A stretch of 64,000 nt of DNA from Eubacteriales bacterium (GTDB taxonomy: Bacteria; Bacillota; Clostridia; Lachnospirales; Lachnospiraceae): positions 1 to 64,000 of the forward strand of contig JAUNJF010000006.1 of assembly GCA_030533405.1 (NCBI GenBank). The letters are read 5' to 3'. The position numbers and the translations under genes were made by a program. This document shows, piece by piece, positions 49,762 through 62,748 of this stretch. The notes below the pieces were generated by a model that made no database searches, had not been told where the DNA came from, and saw nothing but the letters and a program-made list of their open reading frames with translations. Numbering within the stretch: the stretch's first letter is position 1; every line of letters begins with the position of its first letter.

Positions 49762-49970
49762 AGTTTTAAAGCAAGCTATTAAGGTAAAACTTCTGGGATG
49801 TACGACAACTCTTGTAATTTTGAACCTACATTTATTTTTACGGGAAACCGATATTTACATGAGGATGTCAAGCCAGCTTTGATTGGAAGACAGAGCCATG
49901 TGTGAGGTAGCCCACCTAGCTTGGCTAGGACTCAAAATGCAGGAAACGGCATCACCGGTTGTTTTACCAT
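49762..49970 (+). ncRNA. ssrS: 6S RNA
   Basis: Regulatory RNA that binds sigma-A RNA polymerase by mimicking an open promoter. The closing stem is GGTAAAAC (49783-49790) with GTTTTACC (49961-49968). Inside are stretches I recognise from Firmicute 6S RNAs: TTTGAACCTACA on the 5' side, and GACAGAGCCATGTGTGAGG then TAGCCCACCTAGCTTGGCTA on the 3' side. There is no open frame, and a strong sigma-A promoter stands just upstream. Length about 190-210 nt, as expected. Exact ends are uncertain. Confidence 0.85.
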
Positions 49971-53368: not shown

Positions 53369-53632
53369 ATGGATAGGCAATGATGGTGCAAAAGAATGAT
53401 ATGTTCCAACAGAGAGAGATTGTCGCTGGCTGGAAGCAATCTTAGGTTCACATATGATTTTAATTTCACACCGGAGCTTTTGAATGGAAGAATTACAATG
53501 GAATGCATTGGTATTTGGTAGATTCAAACGGGTCATGTACGTTATACATGGGAAAGTGTCAGAGGGATTCCTCTGGAAGCTGGGTGGTACCGCGATTTTG
53601 ATTCGTCCCAATTTATTGGGGCGATTTTTTTG
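53369..53632 (+). promoter_or_regulatory. T-box riboswitch, specifier Phe (UUC)
   Basis: tRNA-sensing leader. Stem I shows the AGAGAG / GATTG...CAATC arm with CTGGCTGGAAG apical sequence; the specifier site reads TTC (53465-53467) followed by ACACCGGAG. The T-box core GGGTGGTACCGCG is at 53582-53594; its TGGT pairs with an uncharged tRNA ending in A73-CCA, consistent with tRNA-Phe. The competing terminator is TCGTCCC...GGGGCGA then T7 (53603-53631). Uncharged tRNA-Phe should turn on the downstream thyX-like, pheS and pheT genes. Confidence 0.93.
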
Positions 53633-53669
53633 TTTTTAATCATTTTATTAGTAAAGGATGTTTGATTAT

Positions 53670-54347
53670 ATGGGAAAGATAATAATACAGGAGGAGACGA
53701 CCAAGGATCCCATCAGCTTAATAGGAAGAGAAGCAGGCGTATGCTGGGGTGCTGATATTACAAATGCTGATAAGAATTATAAGCGTGGTATGGATTGTCT
53801 GGTGTCGGGACATGGAAGAACATGGGAATATCCACAGGTTTATATGATATTAGATGGGTATTCTGCACGTGTCATTCGAGAATTGTATACGCATATTGGT
53901 GGTGCACCAACAAGATTGCAGGCATCTACAAGATATATTAATTATCAAAAGGGATTTCCGTATGTGGTTCCACCAACCATTGCAAAGAATAAGGAAGCAA
54001 GTGAAATATATCATAAAGCGATGGATGATATTCTACATGCGATGCAAAGCCTTGAGACTTTGGAGTTGCCAAGAGAGGATATTGGAATGTTACTTCCACT
54101 TGGTATGGAGAGTAAGGTTGTCTTTCGGACAAATTTGCGTAATTTAATTGATATGTCACATCAACGGTTGTGCACAAGAGCATATTGGGAATATCGCCAG
54201 TTGATGAATGATTTAAAACAGGCATTGGCTTCGTATTCAGAAGAATGGGCATTTTTGACAGAGCATTATTTTGTTGCAAAATGTGATGAATATGGATATT
54301 GTACCGAGGCAAAGTCCTGTGGCAGAAAAGAGAAACGAGAAAAATAA
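53670..54347 (+). CDS. thyX: atypical FAD-dependent thymidylate synthase (ThyX family)
   Basis: 225 aa. ThyX makes dTMP from dUMP with methylene-THF and FAD. Family blocks: SGHGRTWEYPQVYMIL, APTRLQASTRYINYQ (the S-x-R-Y substrate loop), MLLPLGMESK and LRNLIDMSHQRLCTRAYWEYR. The RHR flavin/substrate triad usually just before the loop is not intact (THIGG instead). A Cys group near the C-terminus (CDEYGYC, SCGR) is extra. ATG at 53670 has AAAGGA upstream; the ATG at 53658 overlaps that site. It sits between a Phe T-box and pheS, 13 bp before pheS. Activity is uncertain. Confidence 0.78.
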   Translation: MGKIIIQEETTKDPISLIGREAGVCWGADITNADKNYKRGMDCLVSGHGRTWEYPQVYMILDGYSARVIRELYTHIGGAPTRLQASTRYINYQKGFPYVVPPTIAKNKEASEIYHKAMDDILHAMQSLETLELPREDIGMLLPLGMESKVVFRTNLRNLIDMSHQRLCTRAYWEYRQLMNDLKQALASYSEEWAFLTEHYFVAKCDEYGYCTEAKSCGRKEKREK

Positions 54348-54360
54348 AAGGAGATAAATC

Positions 54361-55380
54361 ATGAAAGAAAAGTTAGAAGCAATTAAGGCAGAAGCGCTTG
54401 CAAAGATTAATGAGGCAAAAGACTTAGATGCATTGAATGAGATTAAGGTTGCAGTGCTTGGCAAAAAAGGTGAATTGACTGCCGTATTAAAGAGTATGAA
54501 GGATGTAGCTCCAGAAGAGCGTCCAATGGTTGGTCAAATGGTAAATGAGGCAAGAGAGGCAATTGAGCAAAAGCTTGAAGAAGAACGTACAAAGGTTGCA
54601 AGAATGCTTCGTACAGAGAAAATGAAAAGAGAAACAATTGATGTAACATTACCGGGAAAGAAAAATATTCGTGGTCATAGACATCCAAATCAGATTGCAT
54701 TAGAGGATTTGGAACGCGTATTTATTGGTATGGGGTATGAGGTTGTGGAAGGTCCAGAAGTGGAATATGACAAATATAACTTTGAGTTGTTAAATATTCC
54801 TGCAAATCATCCAGCAAAAGATGAACAGGATACATTTTACATCAATAAAGAAATCTTACTTCGTACACAGACATCACCAGTGCAGGCACGTATTATGGAA
54901 AAGGGTAACCTCCCAATTCGTATTCTTTCTGCTGGTCGTGTATTTAGAGCAGATGAAGTGGATGCAACACATTCACCATCGTTCCATCAGGTTGAGGGAC
55001 TTGTAATTGATAAAAATATTACAATGGCTGATTTAAAGGGTACTTTAGCGCAGTTTGCGAAGGAGTTCTTTGGTGAAAAGACACAGGTGAAATTCCGTCC
55101 TCACCATTTCCCATTTACAGAGCCTTCTGCTGAGGTGGATATCACATGTTTCAAGTGTGGTGGTAAAGGATGCCGTATGTGTAAAGGAAGCGGATGGATT
55201 GAGATTTTAGGTTGTGGTATGGTTCATCCACATGTATTAGAAATGTGTGGTATCGATCCAAATGAGTATCAGGGATTTGCATTTGGTATCGGACTTGAGC
55301 GTGTAACACTTCTTAAATATGAGATTGATGATATGAGACTTCTTTATGAGAATGATGTACGTTTCTTAAATCAGTTCTAA
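54361..55380 (+). CDS. pheS: phenylalanyl-tRNA synthetase alpha subunit
   Basis: 339 aa, usual length. N-terminal coiled coil (1-90) that contacts tRNA-Phe, then class II core: motif 2 region LLRTQTSPVQARIM, FHQVEGLVID, and RPHHFPFTEPSAEVDI, motif 3 AFGIGLERVTLLKY. A CxxC...CxxC zinc-like pair (CFKCGGKGCRMCKGSGW) is present, as often in clostridial PheS. AAAAGGAG ribosome site. Forms an alpha2-beta2 enzyme with PheT; controlled by the upstream T-box. Confidence 0.97.
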   Translation: MKEKLEAIKAEALAKINEAKDLDALNEIKVAVLGKKGELTAVLKSMKDVAPEERPMVGQMVNEAREAIEQKLEEERTKVARMLRTEKMKRETIDVTLPGKKNIRGHRHPNQIALEDLERVFIGMGYEVVEGPEVEYDKYNFELLNIPANHPAKDEQDTFYINKEILLRTQTSPVQARIMEKGNLPIRILSAGRVFRADEVDATHSPSFHQVEGLVIDKNITMADLKGTLAQFAKEFFGEKTQVKFRPHHFPFTEPSAEVDITCFKCGGKGCRMCKGSGWIEILGCGMVHPHVLEMCGIDPNEYQGFAFGIGLERVTLLKYEIDDMRLLYENDVRFLNQF

Positions 55381-55484
55381 TGATGATTTGAACTAAGAAT
55401 AGAAAATAGCGGTTTCCTCTAATGAAATGGGGAGACAAAATGAATAGATAATAAAATGATGCGAATAGAGAAAGGAAGTTTATT

Positions 55485-57911
55485 ATGAATACTCCAATAT
55501 CATGGATTAAAGCGTATGTTCCAGATTTAGATGTGGATGTACAGGAATTTGTAGATTGTATGACATTATCAGGTTCTCATGTTGAGAGTTATGAGAAAAA
55601 AGATAAGAATCTTGAAAAAATTGTAGTTGGTAAAATTGAAAGCATGGAGAAACATCCAGATGCTGACAAGCTTGTCGTGTGTCAGGTAAATATTGGCGCA
55701 GAAACTGTTCAGATTGTAACAGGTGCAAAGAATGTCAAGGTTGGCGATGTGATTCCAGTTGTATTAGATGGTGGTAAGGTTGCGGCTGCACATGGCGATG
55801 ATAACGAATATCCAGATGGTATCAAGATTAAAAAAGGAAAACTTCGTGGTGTTGAGTCAAATGGTATGATGTGTGGTATTGAAGAGTTAGGCTCTTCAAG
55901 AGACTTTTATCCAGAAGCACCAGAAGACGGTGTATATGTATTTACAGAGGATTCTGGTGTAAAGCCGGGTGATGATGCAGTTAAAGCATTAGGTCTTGAC
56001 GACGTTGTTGTAGAATATGAAATTACATCAAATCGTGTAGATTGTTTTTCTATGATTGGTATGGCAAGAGAGGTTGCGGCAACTTTTGATAAGCCATTTT
56101 ATCCACCAGTTGTTGAGGTAAAGGCAAATGATAAAGATGTAAATGATTTTATTCAGGTTGAAGTAGAAGACAATGTGTTATGTACTCGTTACTGCGCAAG
56201 AGTAGTAGAGAATATCAAGATTGGACCTTCTCCAAAATGGATGCAGGATCGATTAAAGGCAATGGGCATTCGTTCGATTAACAATTTGGTTGATATCACA
56301 AACTACATTATGGAAGAGTATGGTCAGCCAATGCATGCTTACGATTTGGATACGATTGCAGGTCATAAGATTGTTGTAAAACGTGCACAGGATGGTGAAA
56401 CATTCACAACGTTAGATGGTCAGGAAAGAAATCTTGATAATGGCGTATTGATGATTTGTGATGGTGAGAAGGAAGTTGGTATCGCTGGTATTATGGGTGG
56501 AGAAAACTCTATGATTACAGACGATGTAAAGACTGTGTTGTTTGAGGCAGCATGTTTTGATGGAACCAATATCCGTTTAGCATCTAAGAGAATTGGTTTA
56601 CAGACAGATGCGTCATTCAAGTTCACAAAGGGTCTTGATCCAAACACTGCAATCGAAGCAATTAATAGAGCTTGTCAGCTTGTAGAGGAAATGGGCTGTG
56701 GTGATGTTGTAGGTGGCGTTGTAGATGTATATCCTAATCCAGTGAAGGAAAAGGTACTTCCGTTTGAGCCAGAACGTTACAATCATTTATTGGGTACAGA
56801 TATTTCAAAAGAAGATATGCTTGCATACTTCAAAAAATTGGATCTTGTTTATAATGAGGCTGATAATACATTAGTAATTCCAACATTCCGTCAGGATTTG
56901 GGTTGTGCAGCTGACCTTGCTGAGGAAGTAGCAAGATTTTATGGTTATGATAATATTCCAGTTTCATTGCCACGTGGTGAGGCTACGGTTGGTAAGAAGC
57001 CATTTAATCAGAGAGTAGAAGATATGGCAAGAGAAATTTGTGAAAGAAATGGTTTCTCTGGCGGTATGACATATTCATTTGAAAGTCCAAAGGTATTTGA
57101 TAAGTTATTGTTGGCAGAGGATGCGCCAGAGCGTCAGGCAATTGTGATTTCAAATCCACTTGGTGAAGATTTCTCAATTATGCGAACAGTTTCGTTGAAT
57201 GGTATGCTTACATCACTTGCTACAAACTATAACAGACGTAATAAAACAGCAAGACTTTATGAGTTGGGCAATATTTATGTACCAAAGGCATTACCACTTA
57301 CAGAATTACCAGAAGAAAAAATGCGTCTCACAATGGGTATGTATGGAGATGGTGATTTCTTTACATTAAAGGGTGCAGTGGAAGAGATTTTTGAAAAATT
57401 AGGATTTTCTGGACAGATTGAGTTTGCACCATGTAACGATATTCCATATTTGCACCCAGGTCGTCAGGCTCATTTACAAAAGGGTAAATTAGATATTGGA
57501 TTTATGGGACAGGTTCATCCAGAGGTTGGTGATAATTACAACATGAAGGGTGAGGCATATGTTGCTGTATTAAATATGGACGTTATTACAATGCTTGCTA
57601 ACTTTGATCGTAAGTATGAGGGTATTGCAAAATATCCAGCAAGTACAAGAGATCTTTCTATGGTAATGGATAAGAGCATTTTTGTTGGAGAAATTGAGCA
57701 TACCATTACAAAGAATGCAGGAAAGATTTTAGAGAGTGTAGAACTCTTTGACGTATATGAAGGAGAACAGGTTGGCGAAGGAAAGAAATCTGTTGCTTAT
57801 TCGTTAATCTTCCGTGCAAAAGATCGTAACCTTGAATCTGCTGAGGTAGATAAGGCAGTAGAGAAGGTTTTAGATGCACTTAAGAAGATGGGTATTGAAC
57901 TTAGAGGATAA
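55485..57911 (+). CDS. pheT: phenylalanyl-tRNA synthetase beta subunit
   Basis: 808 aa. N-terminal EMAP/tRNA-binding domain ([19 protein letters not shown]), B3/B4 editing domain ([18 protein letters not shown]), B5 region, and C-terminal anticodon-binding fold (FPAS-like [15 protein letters not shown]). GAAAGGAAG ribosome site. The 104-bp gap after pheS holds no terminator that I can see, so it stays in the T-box operon. queA starts 4 bp after the stop. Confidence 0.97.
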
Positions 57912-60120: not shown

Positions 60121-60156
60121 AATTGGAAATGATTAGCAATGAAAGGAACGAAAAAG

Positions 60157-62748
60157 ATGAAACGACTTGCGGTTGGCATTTTAGCCCATGTGGATGCAGG
60201 TAAAACTACATTATCGGAAGGTTTGCTTTTTGAAGGCGGAACAATAAGAAGTATGGGTCGAGTGGACAACCAGAATGCTTTTTTGGATACGGAAGAAATA
60301 GAGCGAGCAAGAGGAATTACAGTATTCTCAAAACAGGCGGTGATAAGGCGGGACAATATGATTCTTACATTATTAGATACACCTGGTCATGTTGATTTTT
60401 CTGCCGAAATGGAACGTACACTTTGGGTAATGGATTATGCTATCCTTGTTATTAGTGGAACCGATGGAATACAGGGACATACCTATACATTGTGGAGATT
60501 GTTGCAACAATATGAGATACCAGTATTTGTTTTCATCAATAAGATGGATCGACCAGAAACCAATCGAGAGCAGTTGATGCATCAGTTACAGGAAGAATTT
60601 GGAGATGGTTGTGTAGATTTTTCAGACACAACTTGCGATGATTTTATGGAGCAGGTTGTTATGTGTGAGGAAACGTTGCTAGAAGCCTATTTGGCAGGAG
60701 AAACAGTAACGCATGAGACCATTGTGGAGTTGATTGCAAATCGAAAAGTATTTCCATGTTTCTTTGGATCGGCGCTTAAAAATGAAGGTGTGAAAGCGTT
60801 TTTGGCACAGTTTGAGAACTATACGATGGATCGGAATGCAATCAATCAGAGCAAAGAATTTGGAGCTAAAGTGTTTAAAATAGCCAGAGATGCGCAGGGA
60901 AATCGTCTTACTTATATGAAGGTGACACAGGGTGTGTTGCGAACAAAAGATGTGGTAAAAAAGTATGGCGATAATGGATTAGAGTGGGAAGAAAAGAATA
61001 ATCAAATACGCGTATATTCTGGAGAACATTATGAAATGATTCCGGAAGCGGAATGTGGTTGTGTTTGTGCTGTAACAGGACTGACGAATACAAGACCAGG
61101 GGATGGCTTGGGTGCAGAACGAAATTCCGTTATGCCATTGCTTGAGCCGGTGCTTACATATGCGGTAGAATTGCCTGAGGATATGGATGCCGCTGTTGCA
61201 TTACCGATGTTGAGACAGCTGGAAGAAGAAGAACCTGAATTGTGTGTGATATGGCAGGAACCAACGAAATCTATTCAAATTTCTCTCATGGGGGAAGTGC
61301 AGTTAGAGGTGCTTACCAAGCTGATTAGGGATCGTTTTGGGTTTGCTGTGAAGTTTGGAACAGGTGATATTGTTTATCGCGAAACCATAGCAAGTACCGT
61401 AGAAGGTGTTGGGCATTTTGAACCCCTTCGACATTATGCAGAGGTGCATGTTTTAATGGAACCAGCAGAGCCTGGAAGTGGAATCCAGCTTATGACAAAA
61501 TGTAGCGAAGATATTTTGAATAAAAACTGGCAGCGGTTGATTTTAACACATTTAGAAGAGAAGAAGCATGTAGGTGTCCTGACGGGATCACAATTGACCG
61601 ATGTTCGTATTACGGTTGTATCTGGGCGGGCACATACGAAACACACAGAAGGTGGAGATTTCAGACAGGCAACCTATCGAGCAGTCCGTCAGGGATTGAT
61701 GCAGGCAGAAAATGTCCTGTTAGAGCCATATTATGCATTTCGAATGGAGATTCCAATGGATTGTGTTGGAAGGGCTATGACAGATGTGGAAAATATGTAT
61801 GGTTCGTTTGAAGCACCCGTTATGGATGGAGAACGTGCGATATTATCGGGTTCGGCCCCTGTTGCAACGATGAGAGACTATCAGATTACGCTAAATGCCT
61901 ATACCAAAGGTATGGGAACCATTTTTTGTACATTACAGGGCTATGGACCATGTCATAATGCGAGTGATGTCATAGAACAGATGCATTATAATCCAGATGA
62001 GGATATAGAGAATCCGGCAGGTTCAGTATTTTGTTCTCATGGGGCGGGATTCATTATTCCGTGGAATCAGGTAAAGCAGTATATGCATATGCCAAGTGTT
62101 TTGGAGGACGAACACACAGAACAATCAGAAGAGGAGTGGATGGAGTCTGTGATGACGCTTGAGGAGCGAAAAGCGAGTCTCATGGATTACTCGATTGACG
62201 AAGAACAGATTCAGGCTATTTTGAATAAAACGTTTCATGCAAATGAAAATGCAAAAAAACACTGGAAAAAGACGAAAAATAAATTACCTGATATACATTA
62301 TAAAGGACAACCGAAGCCAAAAAATTCACAAAAGTATTTGATTGTGGATGGTTATAATATTGTACATGCATGGGAGGAATTAAAATGCCTGGTAAATGAT
62401 AATTTAGAAGGCGCAAGAATGCGATTGTTAGATGTGCTATCGAATTATCAGGCATTTATAAAATTCGAAACGATTGTAGTATTTGATGCATATAAGGTTA
62501 AGGGTAATTTGGGCGAAATGTTCGATTATCAAAATATTCATGTGGTATATACAAAAGAAGCAGAGACTGCTGATAGTTATATTGAGAAATTAACACACCG
62601 GATTTCGAAGGATTACCAGGTGACAGTAGCGACCTCTGACGGTCTGGTACAATTGATTACCAGAGGCAATCATTGTACCGTTTGGTCAGCAAATGATCTC
62701 CGTGAGGAAATCGAGCGCGTGAATTCGCAGATTAGAGAATTTTTATAG
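60157..62748 (+). CDS. TetM-like ribosomal GTPase fused to a Rae1/YacP NYN endoribonuclease domain
   Basis: 863 aa versus about 640 for Tet(M). ATG at 60157 (MKRLAVGILAHV) follows GAAAGGAAC; the ATG at 60139 has no ribosome site. Residues 1-690: EF-G-like GTPase of the ribosomal-protection type, with AHVDAGKTT, RGITVF, DTPGHVDF, NKMD and late LTKLIRDRFGFAVKFG. An acidic linker (640-720) leads to residues 725-863, closely matching B. subtilis Rae1 (YacP): IVDGYNIVHAWEEL, IVVFDAYKVKG, VYTKEAETADSYIEKL, VTVATSDG, keeping all four acidic NYN residues. Rae1 cuts mRNA in the ribosomal A site. I infer a ribosome-directed GTPase-nuclease; it should not be read as proof of tetracycline resistance. Confidence 0.92.
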   Translation: MKRLAVGILAHVDAGKTTLSEGLLFEGGTIRSMGRVDNQNAFLDTEEIERARGITVFSKQAVIRRDNMILTLLDTPGHVDFSAEMERTLWVMDYAILVISGTDGIQGHTYTLWRLLQQYEIPVFVFINKMDRPETNREQLMHQLQEEFGDGCVDFSDTTCDDFMEQVVMCEETLLEAYLAGETVTHETIVELIANRKVFPCFFGSALKNEGVKAFLAQFENYTMDRNAINQSKEFGAKVFKIARDAQGNRLTYMKVTQGVLRTKDVVKKYGDNGLEWEEKNNQIRVYSGEHYEMIPEAECGCVCAVTGLTNTRPGDGLGAERNSVMPLLEPVLTYAVELPEDMDAAVALPMLRQLEEEEPELCVIWQEPTKSIQISLMGEVQLEVLTKLIRDRFGFAVKFGTGDIVYRETIASTVEGVGHFEPLRHYAEVHVLMEPAEPGSGIQLMTKCSEDILNKNWQRLILTHLEEKKHVGVLTGSQLTDVRITVVSGRAHTKHTEGGDFRQATYRAVRQGLMQAENVLLEPYYAFRMEIPMDCVGRAMTDVENMYGSFEAPVMDGERAILSGSAPVATMRDYQITLNAYTKGMGTIFCTLQGYGPCHNASDVIEQMHYNPDEDIENPAGSVFCSHGAGFIIPWNQVKQYMHMPSVLEDEHTEQSEEEWMESVMTLEERKASLMDYSIDEEQIQAILNKTFHANENAKKHWKKTKNKLPDIHYKGQPKPKNSQKYLIVDGYNIVHAWEELKCLVNDNLEGARMRLLDVLSNYQAFIKFETIVVFDAYKVKGNLGEMFDYQNIHVVYTKEAETADSYIEKLTHRISKDYQVTVATSDGLVQLITRGNHCTVWSANDLREEIERVNSQIREFL

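Follow-up and report, generated by a model that had tools for sequence, protein, structure and literature searches.

Here we describe a gene that joins a complete translational GTPase (trGTPase) to a Rae1-type nuclease domain in one chain, and which in many gut Clostridia stands in place of the separate Rae1 gene. It lies at 60157-62748 of the forward strand in the window analyzed, which comprises positions 1 to 64,000 (64,000 nucleotides, nt) of contig JAUNJF010000006.1 (assembly GCA_030533405.1) from a Eubacteriales bacterium of the Lachnospiraceae. As an observation the fusion has been in print since 2015: the available text of Atkinson 2015 (PMC4342817) reports ten Clostridiales species whose Tet proteins gained a YacP-like NYN ribonuclease (RNase) domain, and these proteins are almost certainly the same family. 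A search of the open-access literature found no paper on the function of the fusion.

The gene is a single uninterrupted reading frame with no stop or frameshift in the sequence as read. The longest frame begins at 60139 and encodes 869 amino acids (aa), while a start at 60157 gives 863 aa. The latter is the better start because a Shine-Dalgarno-like AAAGGA lies 9 nt upstream and a same-genus protein (L058) starts at the equivalent place; residue numbering here follows the 863-aa form. Using Pfam and a motif check, we placed a complete EF-G/Tet-shaped trGTPase at residues 4-601, with domains II-V and intact GTPase motifs. A first-pass annotation of this DNA had described one chain with two parts, which stands, and had run the GTPase over residues 1-690, which does not. 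The GTPase proper ends at about residue 601 and is followed by a Cys segment (602-644) and a tether (approximately 645-727). No stop or frameshift separates the GTPase and NYN parts in the open reading frame (ORF), and the same join is found in 50/50 aligned fusions. The features of the gene are as follows.

60142..60147, + strand: Shine-Dalgarno-like AAAGGA, 9 nt upstream of the preferred start at 60157 (read from the sequence)
60157..62748, + strand: whole gene, trGTPase-NYN fusion, 863 aa (open frame and Pfam)
60166..60822, + strand: G domain, residues 4-222, with P-loop, RGIT, DTPGH and NKMD motifs (Pfam GTP_EFTU)
60859..61110, + strand: EF-G domain II, residues 235-318 (Pfam EF-G_D2)
61144..61359, + strand: EF-G domain III, residues 330-401 (Pfam EFG_III)
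61366..61707, + strand: EF-G domain IV, residues 404-517, the best-conserved part of the fusion (Pfam EFG_IV)
61405..61449, + strand: domain IV loop I, GVGHFEPLRHYAEVH, residues 417-431 (conservation count in fusions and unfused relatives)
61624..61665, + strand: domain IV loop III tip, GRAHTKHTEGGDFR, residues 490-503, with K495 at the position of Tet(O)/TetM Pro509 (alignment)
61714..61959, + strand: EF-G domain V, residues 520-601 (Pfam EFG_C)
61951..62088, + strand: conserved Cys segment after domain V, residues 599-644, with C599 and C626 (residue conservation)
62089..62337, + strand: variable charged tether, approximately residues 645-727 (low identity between fusions)
62338..62739, + strand: NYN_YacP / Rae1 nuclease domain, residues 728-861, without the final ~30 residues of standalone Rae1 (Pfam NYN_YacP)

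The join is not an assembly accident, because GTP_EFTU and NYN_YacP are both matched by Pfam in 50/50 aligned fusions (the window protein and 49 of 76 complete named fusions) and because D731, D777, D806 and D828 are kept in all 143 distinct fusions, with E801 in 141/143. Judged from these alignments, this is a real, selected gene, widespread and old. The distinct sets, 143 fusions from 159 and 48 standalone proteins from 61, were obtained by removing fragments and near-identical rows; L073 and L074 (frame broken at the locus) and L179 (no single frame) were left out, and fusions missed by the first motif were then included (L051, L092, L093, L108, L118, L152 and L216). The P-loop, switch and NKxD positions checked are kept in 142-143 of the 143. 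Among 21 fusions, mean pairwise identity peaks at 75% in domain IV. It is 59-60% in the G domain, in domain II and in NYN, falls to 54-55% in domains III and V, and is lowest, at 36%, over residues 602-727, which include the tether. The distance from the SVFC motif to NYN ranges from 86 to 170 across the 143 fusions, with a median of 98. C599 and C626 are present in every one of these and in 36/36 and 34/36 unfused relatives of the GTPase, respectively. Within the genus, 18 of 23 genomes have a frame of 858-904 aa around NYN (40 relatives surveyed). The frames around NYN are shorter in G015, G019 and G021, at 402, 393 and 285 aa, and may reflect broken or split genes or assembly errors; G007 has fragments only and G011 no match.

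The NYN_YacP profile matches residues 728-861 at 152.4 bits, against a cut-off of 24.6. This part also aligns with the YacP structures 5mq8 and 5mq9 (E 4.7e-20) over chain residues 3-136 of 181, the remaining tail of those chains having no counterpart in the window protein. D731, D777, D806 and D828 align to D7, D53, D81 and D104 of 5mq9, and we take them to be the catalytic residues of the NYN domain. By profile and by residue counts, the NYN domain with its acidic catalytic residues present, as first proposed, is thus well supported. It resembles Bacillus subtilis Rae1/YacP (PF05991) in family and in the conserved aspartates with their surroundings (VDGYN, VVFDA, TKExETADxxIEKL and VATSD), and the fusion takes the one-per-genome place of Rae1. 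However, Rae1 is a free protein of ~170 aa that usually adjoins rlmB in the Clostridia examined, whereas here an 863-aa GTPase at another genome location carries it as the C-terminal domain. Standalone Rae1 has a full tail, and the window copy is without the last ~30 residues: its match stops at profile position 136-138, so that the full tail (profile 139-166) is absent. The tail is short in 26/143 fusions, the window protein included, versus 0/48 standalone proteins (Fisher p 4e-4, which ignores kinship and comes from rows drawn from the best matches and so biased to good matches); a standalone row, G166, also stops early, at profile position 142. A link between tail loss and fusion is therefore only suggestive, and perhaps the GTPase took over part of the docking role of the lost tail. 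In the available text on B. subtilis Rae1 (PMC6613710), R166P in the tail is one of the suppressor mutations interpreted as loss-of-function changes.

The fusion has replaced the separate Rae1 gene. In the window genome the only YacP match is the fusion itself, and exactly one NYN match is found in 224 of the 226 NYN-bearing genomes of an order sample (genomes at least 95% complete) and in 189/193 of a class sample. The genomes without exactly one are G043, G064, G375, G422, G449 and G509, and in G509 one copy is fused and the other standalone. Standalone rae1 lies directly after rlmB on the same strand, within 200 nt, in 37/49 genomes examined, with the arrangement unseen in 12; this count leaves out L235, L248 and L030 (no NYN by motif) and L230, L241, L243, L246 and L247 (fused). 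In the fused genomes where rlmB was located, an NYN motif within 1.5 kb of it is absent in 10/10. By eye, a SigH-like gene comes next after rlmB in four of these ten (G116, G213, G235 and G059). Two of the four were run against NCBIfam, and SigH was the best match for both, once above and once below the cut-off. A similar sigma gene, again by eye, directly follows rae1 in 6/8 standalone loci, lies farther away in one and is not in one. Comparing the rlmB-rae1-sigH order with the rlmB loci of fused genomes, we therefore conclude that rae1 was lost from that order there.

The order sample has a YacP match in 226/245 genomes and the GTPase part, called at E 1e-150, in 157/241 (four of the 245 lay outside this search). 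The window's own family (f1) is GTPase-positive in 114/125 genomes of this sample; 105 of the 114 have frames of 848-1045 aa, six are unfused, and three (G184, G232 and G245) are without a listed row. A survey of the Lachnospiraceae had been proposed in the first-pass annotation, and it gives the long frame in 105/125 family genomes, with a separate yacP mostly gone. The class sample has the GTPase in 124/293 genomes and YacP in 193/293, and the phylum sample has the GTPase in 20/249, with 17 of the 20 in frames of 857-909 aa. Fusion carriers are spread over many families of these two samples. Among named species, carriers include Anaerovorax odorimutans, Desulfosporosinus acididurans, Fusibacter sp. 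3D3, Clostridium punense, Caproicibacter fermentans and Intestinimonas butyriciproducens. The Monoglobus pectinilyticus fusion bears the RefSeq label "translation factor GTPase family protein," which is a name only, with no function attached. In the search that gave the named carriers, the NYN motif is present in 79/80 loci (80 kept of at least 596 loci encoding a relative). Across 80 loci compared for gene neighborhood, there is no conserved neighbor or operon partner, the commonest neighbor family occurring in 13 at varying positions. Anti-phage defense was considered and rejected, with no PADLOC match and no conserved neighbors in the 80 loci. PHROGs gave one match, to phrog_6880 "translation elongation factor," covering the GTPase part only. 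Two phage records match over at least 80%; MT835563.1 (5421-8009) and MT835514.1 (15276-17786) are unannotated fecal "Bacteriophage sp." entries with full-length fusions at 50-52% identity, and are possibly host DNA.

The GTPase part belongs to a subfamily with members both fused and free. We collected 36 unfused relatives of 639-724 aa, one of 618 aa coming from a short contig. The tip motifs GHFEPLxHYAEV and HxKHTxGGDFR are common to fused and unfused forms, each checked position being kept in 34-36 of the 36 unfused relatives, and loop I residues G419, H420, E422, P423, H426, Y427 and E429 in 36/36. Since the tip is nearly as invariant in the unfused forms, its task is not specific to the fusion. 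The Ligilactobacillus copy deviates at H493 and K495. In a tree of 50 fused, 36 unfused, two Tet and three EF-G rows, fused and unfused proteins fall into a single clade that excludes Tet(O)/Tet(W) and EF-G, with support 98 (starred). For the trees, the 143 fusions were thinned by similarity and then limited to 50; the EF-G-like paralogues L310 and L311 escaped the motif and stand outside the tree. The GTPase tree separates the 50 fused rows plus the unfused Ligilactobacillus salivarius copy from the rest (support 84, not starred). For NYN, the likelihood is higher for a tree that keeps all 50 fused rows in one group, and this tree is not rejected (approximately unbiased test, p-AU 0.589), with standalone NYN of the window's own family not resolved from the fused ones. 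On these trees, the simplest account is that the fusion most likely arose once. The L. salivarius copy (L290, 3986-5920) is on a plasmid, close to a plasmid-borne rpsN, and is nested among the fused rows as if NYN had been lost. Another genome has two unfused GTPase copies (G363:C1:577252-579186 and 1255706-1257637; L282 and L281).

In the order sample, every one of the 19 genomes listed with an unfused GTPase carries a standalone NYN as well. A large part of the overall co-occurrence of GTPase and NYN is trivial, as the fusion puts both parts on one gene. A strict rule that the GTPase occurs only where NYN exists was rejected, as 6 of the 124 GTPase-positive class-sample genomes break it; the sole order-sample exception is G083, whose gene runs off the end of a contig. 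Fusion links the two parts, but neither strictly requires the other.

EF-G and TetM insert domain IV into the ribosomal aminoacyl (A) site. The architecture of the fusion, with both parts on one chain, domain IV the best-conserved part and the Rae1-type active site intact, supports the earlier suggestion of a protein suited to work at the A site. We find the prospects evenly balanced that it is a Rae1 with its own ribosome-docking motor, in which the GTPase docks and the tethered nuclease cuts A-site messenger RNA (mRNA). On a 70S ribosome that has paused or stalled, the GTPase part would occupy the factor site, posed like EF-G or TetM, and place the His/Lys-rich tip of domain IV into the empty A site. 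GTP hydrolysis would then withdraw or release domain IV, and the Rae1 domain, on its tether of ~80 residues, would enter the A site and cut the exposed mRNA. The truncated message would be left for transfer-messenger RNA (tmRNA) and exonucleases. What we infer here is the recruitment or licensing of the nuclease by the GTPase, the sequence of the steps, and stalled ribosomes as the target. The strong conservation of domain IV counts toward docking, and a GTPase and a nuclease on one chain with ~80 variable residues between them fit a two-step machine. In the available text of PMC6613710, B. subtilis Rae1 is an A-site endoribonuclease with an mRNA substrate, and its access may grow on ribosome stalling. 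Rae1 is also listed, in the accessible part of PMC12320835, among enzymes able to attack A-site mRNA and so free the A site for tmRNA. We found tmRNA in 11/11 genomes tested; therefore cut messages can be rescued. A rescue or quality-control role, as first suggested for this gene, is a reasonable inference.

More tentatively, and with some doubt, the protein may represent a third kind of EF-G-shaped factor, a GTP-driven A-site mRNA nuclease that is neither translocase nor drug ejector and in which the tip tests the site before the leashed nuclease acts. If so, most Lachnospiraceae and many other Clostridia would have it as their main stall-triggered mRNA cutter. As a natural fusion with a long frame in 105/125 family genomes, it allows a direct test of whether GTP hydrolysis gates mRNA cutting. 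It also brings out a subfamily of EF-G shape whose unexplained domain IV tip is nearly invariant.

Several observations weigh against docking by the GTPase as the means by which the nuclease acts. Domain IV and NYN should not fit one A site together, so a sequential model must be assumed. The unfused GTPase is present without an NYN match in 6/21 class-sample genomes (G292, G295, G318, G332, G425 and G512, 95-99% complete; the other 15/21 have one). Such a GTPase is in turn missing, at E 1e-150, from 75/193 NYN genomes of the class sample, and by motif no unfused GTPase adjoins a standalone NYN in 37 loci of ~7-10 kb. Because six genomes hold the unfused GTPase with no NYN match, the GTPase probably has an independent function as well. 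The 6/21 and 75/193 counts favor a different account, in which one chain carries two separate jobs: the GTPase would be EF-G/EF4-like and remodel or move ribosomes, the NYN would be an ordinary Rae1, and fusion would only fix their ratio. The nearly identical domain IV tip of fused and unfused forms and the variable tether also suit it. It is, however, harder to square with the giving up of separate rae1 in almost all fusion genomes and with retention of the fusion in many families. The loss of the NYN tail in some fusions and no standalone protein, in a sample biased to good matches, likewise looks as if the GTPase had assumed part of the docking of NYN. We regard two separate jobs as unlikely, though a serious contender. 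A role in ribosome assembly or in processing of ribosomal RNA (rRNA) or transfer RNA (tRNA), with the GTPase positioning NYN on rRNA or tRNA and not on mRNA, we regard as improbable. An early prediction of this kind for YacP NYN domains is cited in the available text of Atkinson 2015 (PMC4342817), and standalone rae1 adjoins rlmB, which encodes an rRNA methyltransferase, and by eye an mrnC-like gene lies beside it. Yet the described substrate of B. subtilis Rae1 is mRNA (PMC6613710, available text), the conserved residues are kept in the fused domain, and the fusion has no conserved neighbor suggestive of a task on rRNA.

Tetracycline ribosomal protection with an added RNase has a published basis, the accessible text of Atkinson 2015 (PMC4342817) suggesting an RNase-based resistance mechanism and naming rRNA RNase ability as a point to test. 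That publication, which filed the proteins under Tet, precedes the 2017 Rae1 paper. The overall EF-G/Tet shape agrees with this reading, the domain order being that of Tet(M)/Tet(O)/Tet(W) with ~29% identity to Tet(O) and Tet(W) over ~600 residues, and in NCBIfam the window protein matches the Tet profile best. However, tet_protect (NF012153) scores only 413.7 bits against a curated cut-off of 775 and 848.5 for a Tet(O) control; four unfused relatives score 406-458 and another fusion 430. The search of the GTPase part thus matched all EF-G domains and fell below the resistance cut-off. In the structure of TetM on the ribosome, Pro509 overlaps tetracycline, according to the available text of PMC7456112; the equivalent position is Lys in 141/143 fusions and 35/36 unfused relatives and Pro in Tet(O) and Tet(W). 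With its score, this tip residue and its separate trGTPase clade, the GTPase is not "TetM-type," as it was initially called. The fusion further differs from the Tet proteins in its extra Cys segment, its nuclease domain and its core-like spread, with frames of 848-1045 aa in 105/114 GTPase-positive family genomes. Plasmid matches over at least 80% of the query number 2 of 72,556 records, both large non-mobilizable replicons. The GTPase part by itself is not always chromosomal, as 23 of the 25 plasmid records listed are unfused relatives on L. salivarius plasmids, most under a TetM/TetW/TetO/TetS label. A chromosomal TetM-like gene, possibly close kin of the fusion, gives resistance in B. toyonensis (PMC5209696, available text). 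On score, tip and distribution, drug resistance was rejected as the principal explanation, in line with the first-pass view that this is not simple drug resistance, and we consider it highly improbable. One fusion, in Agathobacter rectalis NZ_CP143948.1 (L292, 5974-8775), bears the RefSeq label "TetM/TetW/TetO/TetS family tetracycline resistance." Public records thus sometimes label a core-like gene of gut commensals as tetracycline resistance, and surveys may count it as such.

Two other features of the window lie upstream of the fusion. At 53371-57911, a T-box leader (94.7 bits) is followed by a ThyX-like ORF (53658-54347) and then by pheS- and pheT-like ORFs, the ORFs being identified by eye; here a thymidylate synthase may have a tRNA-sensing leader in common with a tRNA synthetase. 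A 6S RNA gene is found at 49787-49965 (77.3 bits).

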